DNA from: Planctomycetaceae bacterium
GTDB taxonomy: Bacteria > Planctomycetota > Phycisphaerae > Phycisphaerales > SM1A02
DNA length: 64,000 nt
NCBI GenBank assembly: GCA_947490615.1
Contig: CANLHK010000001.1
Location: 186,001 to 250,000 of the forward strand
Direction: 5' to 3'
Below, in pieces: positions 8,713 to 10,342 of the stretch (position 1 is its first letter; the number at the start of each line of letters is the position of its first letter). The position numbers and the translations under genes are program-made. The notes beneath the pieces are model-generated. The model was not told the DNA's origin, did not search any database, and was given only the letters and a program-made list of their open reading frames with translations.

Positions 8713-10104
8713 TCACTCATCATCATCGTCGGCACCCGCACCAGCCTCGGCACCCTTCGGCGCGCTGCCCTTGCCGCGATTTGCTGCTTCGTTGGCGGCA
8801 GCACGCTTGTCGAGGACCCGCTGGCGAATCTCAGCGAACATCGCGGGGTTCTCTCGAAGGAAACCCTTGGCGTTCTCGCGGCCCTGACCGATGCGCGTGG
8901 TCTTGTAGTTGAACCACGAGCCCGACTTCTCGATGATGTTGTCCTCGACGGCGAGGTCGACGAGGTCACCCGTCGTCGAGATGCCTTCGTTGAACATGAT
9001 GTCGAACTCTGCCTCGCGGAACGGTGGCGCGATCTTGTTCTTCACGACCTTGGCGCGGACGCGGTTGCCGATGTTGCGATCGCCATCCTTGATCGCACCA
9101 ATGCGGCGGATGTCGATGCGCACCGAGGAGTAGAACTTCAGCGCCTTGCCGCCGGTGGTCGTTTCGGGCGAGCCGAACATCACACCGATCTTCTCACGGA
9201 GCTGGTTGATGAAGATCACGATGCACTCGCTCTTGGCGATGGCACCCGTCAGCTTCCGCAGCGCTTGGGACATGAGGCGAGCCTGCAGACCCATCTGCGA
9301 CTCGCCCATTTCGCCTTCGATTTCGGCCTTGGGGATGAGCGCGGCCACAGAGTCGATCACGATGATGTCAACGGCGTTGGAACGCACGAGCATCTCGCAG
9401 ATCTCCAGTGCCTGTTCGCCTGTGTCGGGCTGCGAAACCAACATCTCGTCGAGGTTGACGCCGATGCGCTTGGCCCACGAGGGATCCAACGCGTGCTCGG
9501 CGTCGATGAAGGCAGCGACGCCTCCAGTCTTCTGCGCGTTGGCGACCACGGTCAAGGCCAGCGTTGTCTTACCTGAAGACTCTGGTCCGAAGATTTCGAT
9601 GACGCGGCCGCGCGGGAGTCCGCGTCCACCGAGGGCGAGATCGAGACTCAGCGCGCCGGTTGGGATGGCGGGAATCGGCGTGAGCGACTCGCCATCGAGC
9701 CTCATGATCGAACCCTTGCCGTAGGCCTTCTCAATCGCGCCCATGGCGCGTTCGATGGCGGCGAGTTTGCCCTTGCGCTCCTCGACGGCCTTCGCGGCAT
9801 CGACCTTTGCTTGGCCAGTCAACGGCGCGACGCGCGGCTTCTCTTCGATCGTTGCAGCGGCCGCGGTTGGAGCCTGTCGCATCGTCGGTGCGATGGACGC
9901 CGCTCCAGGACCAGCGGCGGAAGCAGAAGGACGGGTGGGGGTCGAGTTGCTGGTCGAGTTGCTAGTCGAGGTGGCCATCGCGGAAGTTCCTGTTGGAGTC
10001 GGAGTGCTTGGGCGTGCGGTCGGCTGCAGGGGTTGCGATGCCGAGGTCGTGCGGTCCGAGCTGGTGGGAGTCTGGCTTTGAGTCGGGGTGGTGCTTGCGA
10101 TCAT
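8713..10104 (-). CDS. recA: Recombinase RecA with long N-terminal extension
   Basis: 463 residues against about 350 for typical RecA. It forms the ATP-dependent filament for homologous recombination and SOS induction. The RecA core begins at about residue 109 ([18 protein letters not shown]). Walker A is GPESSGKT (173-180), and [18 protein letters not shown] and the L2 region [22 protein letters not shown] follow. The acidic tail DDDDE closes it. The first 108 residues are rich in Thr, Ser, Pro and Ala. AAGGAAAAGAG just before the ATG at 10104 supports this start, but an ATG at 9978 with AGGAA upstream is also possible. The tail of the gene is followed by a long gene-free stretch. Confidence 0.95.
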
Positions 10105-10190: not shown

Positions 10191-10234
10191 CCGAACAGAA
10201 GCCGTCTTCTTGTTCGGTAGATGTTCGGACACTA
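10191..10234 (-). promoter_or_regulatory. recA promoter with LexA-like operator
   Basis: The direct repeat GTTC-N7-GTTC lies at 10212-10226, with bases GGTAGAT between the halves. This matches the LexA operator form described for alphaproteobacteria. Just upstream on the minus strand TAGTGT at 10229-10234 is a plausible -10, which places the operator at the transcription start. CCGAACA (10191-10197) and TGTTCGG (10211-10217) also form inverted arms. SOS control is an inference. Confidence 0.5.
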
Positions 10235-10342
10235 CCACATCGGTTCGACCGTGGGGGGCGACCCTACTTTTTCCCGAACATTTTTTGGCGACCACGAAAT
10301 CTCACCACCGTGGAAGAAGCGAACCACTCGTCGTCAGGCCAC

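Follow-up and report, generated by a model that had tools for sequence, protein, structure and literature searches.

The window, by which we mean the whole 64,000 nt stretch of DNA analysed here, carries recA on its minus strand, preceded by a leader that holds four copies of the heptamer CCGAACA, in one orientation or the other (TGTTCGG), within 90 bp. In window coordinates, the features are:

8713-10104, minus strand: recA, an ORF of 463 aa (Pfam PF00154, 446.8 bits; NCBIfam TIGR02012, 544.3 bits)
10191-10197, minus strand: putative operator half-site 3, TGTTCGG, inverted, 13 bases after half-site 2, with which it can pair
10211-10217, minus strand: putative operator half-site 2, CCGAACA, 11 bp after half-site 1, with TCTA between
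10222-10228, minus strand: putative operator half-site 1, CCGAACA, directly downstream of the candidate -10
10229-10237, minus strand: candidate extended -10 of the recA leader, TGG-TAGTGT (hexamer TAGTGT at 10234-10229)
10274-10280, minus strand: upstream half-site TGTTCGG (CCGAACA on the plus strand), followed by a conserved GAAAAAGTAGGG-like stretch

Read on the minus strand, half-sites 1 and 2 together form GAAC-N7-GAAC. An initial annotation of the window had described an exact GTTC-N7-GTTC repeat lying immediately downstream of a candidate -10, TAGTGT, and it was right on both counts: the repeat occupies 10212-10226, and half-site 1 (10228-10222) abuts TAGTGT (10234-10229). The further copies were said to be able to pair, as indeed the second CCGAACA can with the TGTTCGG that follows it. 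The 11 bp direct repeat likely covers the recA transcription start, just after the -10, when that start is placed from the candidate -10 only. A simple consensus promoter scan returned no sigma-70 promoter in the leader. The spacings between successive half-sites are 52, 11 and 20 bp, all close to whole helical turns, so the four half-sites would sit on one face of the DNA.

Before its conserved core, which begins at about residue 113, RecA carries an extra N-terminal stretch of approximately 112 residues (window 9769-10104, minus strand) rich in Thr, Ser, Ala and Pro. Long open frames surround recA in many relatives too. A recA of this planctomycete kind is also found in record JASGCF010000090.1, which is titled Limnohabitans sp. 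MAG13, a label that looks wrong.

Occurrence of the repeat in the genome and the genus

The bare GTTC-N7-GTTC pattern was found five times in the window, against a mean of 2.45 in 100 shuffles, 11 of which reach five, and 114 times genome-wide, against 159 for the reversed pattern. As it is enriched in neither the window nor the genome, it was discarded as a genome-wide predictor. The bare pattern is at chance level and uninformative by itself; the specific unit is the heptamer CCGAACA. Across the window the heptamer is not enriched (11 vs 10.41), and four of the 11 copies are those in the recA leader.

When CCGAACA-N4-CCGAACA, a pattern itself derived from the recA leader of the window, was used to search the 3.26 Mb assembly, a single exact copy was returned, at recA. 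With up to one mismatch the genome holds four sites. Besides the one at recA, these are a lexA site some 740 nt upstream from the core of that gene, a radA site no more than 40 nt from the start of the gene, and a site about 100 nt ahead of the conserved start of a uvrD/pcrA helicase. The radA gene exceeds the cut-off of TIGR00416 (484.6 bits). The helicase matches UvrD-helicase at 266.6 bits, and its best NCBIfam model is pcrA, though under the cut-off on a cut ORF. With up to three mismatches, the pair is in only small excess over the control (262 vs 213), so only the strong sites are informative. The inverted pattern TGTTYGG-N4-14-CCGAACA had no match in the genome.

In the 16 genomes of the genus, the one-mismatch search gave 52 sites, compared with 21 when the pattern was reversed, and 39 of the 52 were assigned to the same four DNA-repair or SOS loci: 13 to recA, 18 to lexA (one of them, in G011, from its promoter signature at a contig end), five to radA and three to uvrD. 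The other 13 were treated as background; they are fewer than the 21 controls, and 12 lie inside a mechanically called ORF of at least 110 aa.

The repeat is fully conserved at recA. All 13 genus genomes with a usable recA have the 11 bp direct repeat in the leader, and each has CGAACA at the position of half-site 1, an upstream TGTTCGG exactly 52 bp from half-site 1 (start-to-start), an inverted TGTTCGG exactly 13 bases after half-site 2, and TGTGGTA at the candidate -10. The absence of the motif from the recA leaders of relatives had been named as grounds for abandoning an SOS reading, and it is present in all 13 leaders examined in the genus. The promoter stretches CCGATGTGGTA and AAAAAGTAGG between the half-sites are conserved in the genus as well, and the fixed spacing thus partly reflects conservation of the whole promoter.

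Upstream of lexA, the 11 bp repeat was found in 12 of 14 genus genomes when the halves were required to be CGAAC or CAAAC with at least one CGAAC, and in nine both halves are CGAAC. The exceptions are G009, where only 605 nt of upstream sequence is available, and G004, where the first half is degenerate. The distance from these sites to the lexA core downstream is approximately 600-1190 nt, and in most cases another conserved ORF lies between. Every genus genome examined for radA has the repeat (12/12), five with CGAAC in both halves and seven with CAAAC in one half, G009 among the latter having it in the opposite orientation. Ten of these 12 radA genes were located without the motif, by a RecA-like match, and those of G004 and G001 via the motif search only; one G001 locus, which lacks the RadA zinc finger, was excluded from the tally. 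At uvrD, the strict repeat is present in 6/13 (7/13 by a pattern count; the match in G014 was left out as it is not in the equivalent place). The radA tally covers 12 of the 16 genus genomes and the uvrD tally 13.

A search upstream of lexA, imuA/B, dnaE2 and uvrA had been proposed; for lexA, uvrA and imuB-like loci its outcome was divided. The repeat was found at lexA, as described above, but not in the 500 nt before the conserved start of uvrA (0/13 genus genomes), nor in the four scanned of six weak imuB-like (Y-family) loci. It is likewise missing from the 500 nt before the conserved start of dinB (0/13), with the proviso for both dinB and uvrA that sites would be missed if transcription starts further upstream than 500 nt. 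Scattered single heptamers are present in the dinB and uvrA stretches, and the uvrA leader of G004 has TGTTCGG-N9-CCGAACA, an inverted arrangement. On the stretches scanned, dinB, uvrA and the weak imuB-like loci were not accepted as targets, and the regulon seen is therefore small.

The ORF between the operator cluster and lexA was examined in the genome of the window (G000, contig C2, L111:1014-1703 approximately), where it is on the lexA strand and encodes PLVxLGPGGDYTxRY near its start. An ORF of this kind precedes lexA in 24/30 genomes and overlaps roughly the first 200-250 nt of the lexA core, in a different reading frame that is the same in all 24. In its conserved block the third codon positions are the most variable (0.52 vs 0.30 and 0.23). 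The copy in the genome of the window has no Pfam match. This ORF is a candidate for an SOS-induced partner of lexA.

Half-site and geometry across the order

CCGAACA was counted over at most 600 nt ahead of the recA core and at most 1400 nt ahead of the lexA core, with expectations from 40 shuffles each. For recA, 58 of 61 genomes had a match and 55 were used, after removal of G007 (a weak RadA-like match) and of G012 and G026 (contig-edge fragments); for lexA, all 58 genomes with a match were used. Observed and expected counts were:

Genus of the window: recA 43 vs 1.8; lexA 24 vs 3.7
Other genera of the family: recA 32 vs 1.6; lexA 27 vs 4.0
Family f2: recA 9 vs 0.4; lexA 17 vs 1.6
Family f3: recA 0 vs 0.1; lexA 1 vs 0.1
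Family f4: recA 4 vs 0.5; lexA 1 vs 0.8
Family f5: recA 10 vs 0.7; lexA 5 vs 1.6
Family f6: recA 2 vs 0.2; lexA 6 vs 1.7

The half-site is thus widespread in the order, with f4 as the exception at lexA, where 5/6 genomes have no CCGAACA in the upstream sequence counted.

The geometry is another matter. At recA and lexA, sister genera retain the half-site but mostly in other arrangements. The lexA genes of several have TGTTCGG, a -10-like TAACGT and then CCGAACA (GTTCG-N12-CGAAC in 5/20), and the recA leaders of G020 and G032 have the palindrome CGAAC-N4-GTTCG. In f5, 4/6 recA leaders have CCGAACA before a -10-like hexamer and CCGAACA or CCAAACA after it. Within the family but outside the genus, the exact 11 bp repeat was found at recA in 1/19 (G031) and at lexA in 2/20 (G017 and G021); in other families it was found at recA in 2/6 of f5 and at lexA in 2/6 of f4 and 1/5 of f6. 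A relaxed direct repeat with a CCGAAT-type first half is present at recA in G019 and G022. As the exact repeat is uncommon outside the genus, it is not the general operator of the order.

The literature searched yielded no LexA motif for Planctomycetota, but subscription papers were mostly outside that search and an earlier report is possible. PMC3108266 says only that planctomycete LexA fails to recognise the E. coli motif. GTTC-N7-GTTC is given as the LexA motif of Alphaproteobacteria in PMC3323433 and PMC8565304, and as that of Caulobacter in PMC12700426. The window's genus resembles Alphaproteobacteria in having a GTTC/GAAC direct repeat with an 11 bp period at recA and lexA, together with a long LexA hinge. 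However, its half-site is CCGAACA, it belongs to another phylum, no repeat was found at dinB or uvrA in the stretches scanned, and its sister genera mostly have other geometries. Among named genomes, ten of the 12 best-matching RecA proteins carry a Phycisphaerae, Phycisphaera(les) or Planctomycetota label. The operator form had been likened to that of Alphaproteobacteria, and while the likeness holds for the geometry, it does not extend to descent: with RecA matches from Planctomycetota, the match is one of geometry.

GAAC-N4-GTTC is given as the LexA motif of Gram-positives in PMC3323433. The CGAAC half-site is that of the Gram-positive box, G020 and G032 have the palindrome at recA, and by eye the recognition-helix region of LexA looks similar to that of Gram-positives. 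In contrast to that box, the repeats in the window's genus are direct, and the palindrome is absent from its 13 recA leaders. The Verrucomicrobia LexA motif is reportedly TGTTC-N4-GAACA. Its outward-facing TGTTC and GAACA halves are seen at lexA in several sister genera, but there the gap from GTTCG to CGAAC is 12 (5/20) and includes the -10-like TAACGT.

LexA and its hinge

The genome of the window has a single match to the LexA family. The protein has the LexA DNA-binding and S24 domains (Pfam) and scores 144.7 bits against the NCBIfam model, above its cut-off. Its AAG, GMSM and TLK stretches, which we take to hold the cleavage site, serine and lysine, align with solved LexA repressors. The gene is intact and encodes a canonical LexA with a predicted cleavable S24 domain. 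The recognition region, SKVTVFEH, is nearly constant in 30 LexAs from families f1 and f4, with one or two changes in some, which fits the constancy of the half-site.

The hinge is 30-49 residues long in 14/14 genus members and 30 in G031, whose recA has the same direct repeat and N13 inverted copy as the genus. It is 17-22 in 11 other family members, 17 in three f4 members and 16-21 in four named Planctomycetota, and overall 16-22 in 18/19 relatives measured, G031 being the other; G029 and G081 are left out of the tally. In reference LexAs (four from each group), hinges are 39-49 residues in Alphaproteobacteria, 13-19 in Gammaproteobacteria, 15-21 in Firmicutes and 27-38 in Actinobacteria. In the LexA tree, G031 falls in an unresolved group with the 14 genus members (97/91). 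In the RecA tree, from which G031 is absent, 12 genus members form one group (100/99). The long hinge and the direct repeat may thus have arisen once here, a single event that is no proof of cause.

A long hinge was not accepted as a proven sufficient cause of the direct repeat. The 27-38 residue hinges of Actinobacteria speak against a simple hinge rule, as do G017 and G021, which have short hinges and the direct repeat at lexA; the scattered direct repeats in f5 genomes and the relaxed ones at recA in G019 and G022 may point the same way. According to PMC8607333, the LexA of M. tuberculosis carries an extra 18 residues in its hinge and yet uses palindromic SOS boxes.

A probable SOS operator and the alternatives

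We read the repeat at recA as a probable LexA operator, since related genomes also have it near lexA, radA and uvrD. That recurrence supports the initial proposal of an SOS operator, and on present sequence evidence the recA array is very probably the SOS operator of recA, bound by LexA. The best reading is that a Gram-positive-like half-site is combined with an alphaproteobacterial-like geometry, with LexA as the predicted ligand. By eye, the first half-site at lexA in the genus overlaps the -10 region, and the radA site lies approximately where a -35 would be; the positions at recA, lexA and radA suit a repressor. In undamaged cells, LexA dimers would occupy the CCGAACA half-sites, above all the 11 bp direct repeat over the likely start, and would keep RNA polymerase off the recA promoter or unable to start. 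The flanking half-sites would probably contribute cooperativity or DNA looping over the promoter. On DNA damage, RecA filaments would bring about LexA cleavage, which would lift repression of recA, radA, uvrD and the lexA transcript. Several observations count against an SOS operator: dinB and uvrA lack the repeat in the 500 nt scanned, the lexA sites are distant, uvrD has the strict repeat in only 6/13, it is uncommon outside the genus, f4 mostly lacks CCGAACA upstream of lexA, and the fixed spacing at recA is in part that of a promoter conserved as a whole. A second regulator may also share the half-site.

Another DNA-damage regulator, such as a WYL-domain activator, might bind the sites instead, with lexA as just one of its targets; PafBC and DriD are examples of such activators. 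The spacing and orientation of the half-sites vary between genera, which would be unusual for one dimeric repressor, and the missing dinB and uvrA sites could be read the same way. Nevertheless, at recA and lexA the sites overlap the -10 or the likely start, where repressors act, and lexA is itself among the targets. CGAAC is moreover the half-site of the Gram-positive LexA motif as given in PMC3323433, and it forms a palindrome at recA in G020 and G032. We consider a different regulator unlikely.

A lower probability still attaches to an RNA hairpin built from the inverted copies of the recA leader, an attenuator or stability element of which the direct repeat would be a by-product. CCGAACA-N13-TGTTCGG is present in 13/13 genus leaders, and of the positions flanking the inverted copies inward, the first pairs in 11/13 (not in the window; G-C in nine genomes and A-T in two), the second in 13/13 and the third in 8/13. 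This pairing leaves room for a hairpin. However, one recA half-site is upstream of the -10 and another is at the likely start, and the radA and uvrD leaders viewed have the direct repeat without an inverted copy. The predicted fold of the recA leader is only modestly better than those of shuffles (z = -1.73; 9/200 at least as good), both terminator-like matches sit on the other strand, and the leader had no Rfam match up to E = 1. That the array is a chance product of a gapped four-base pattern common in a GC-rich genome can be given next to no weight, as the unenriched bare pattern and the slight excess at three mismatches are outweighed by identical spacing in all 13 leaders and by the 39/52 strong sites at four loci, and conservation already contradicts it.

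Returning to the LexA reading, operators of this repressor vary in shape between phyla, which raises the question of how it moves from palindromic to direct-repeat sites. In the present family the half-site is constant while geometry and hinge length vary between genera, which makes the switch testable. A bolder scenario, which we put forward tentatively and would not yet bet on, is that within one planctomycete family the CGAAC half-site was kept and the operator was rebuilt from an inverted or palindromic form to an 11 bp direct repeat, alongside lengthening of the hinge (30-49 vs 16-22 residues) and independently of Alphaproteobacteria, with four half-sites at about whole helical turns holding the recA promoter in a repression complex. 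The predicted SOS regulon of this lineage comprises recA, lexA, radA and uvrD.

Elsewhere, a promoter-like TTGGCA followed by TACACT runs into ACTAACAAAACCCGAACA near a contig end (G000:C1:315-332, L176). In G009 (C185:5002-5019, L250), CCGAACAAATACCGAGCA is followed by ATTCGGTATCCT upstream of an ORF, a possible further target.
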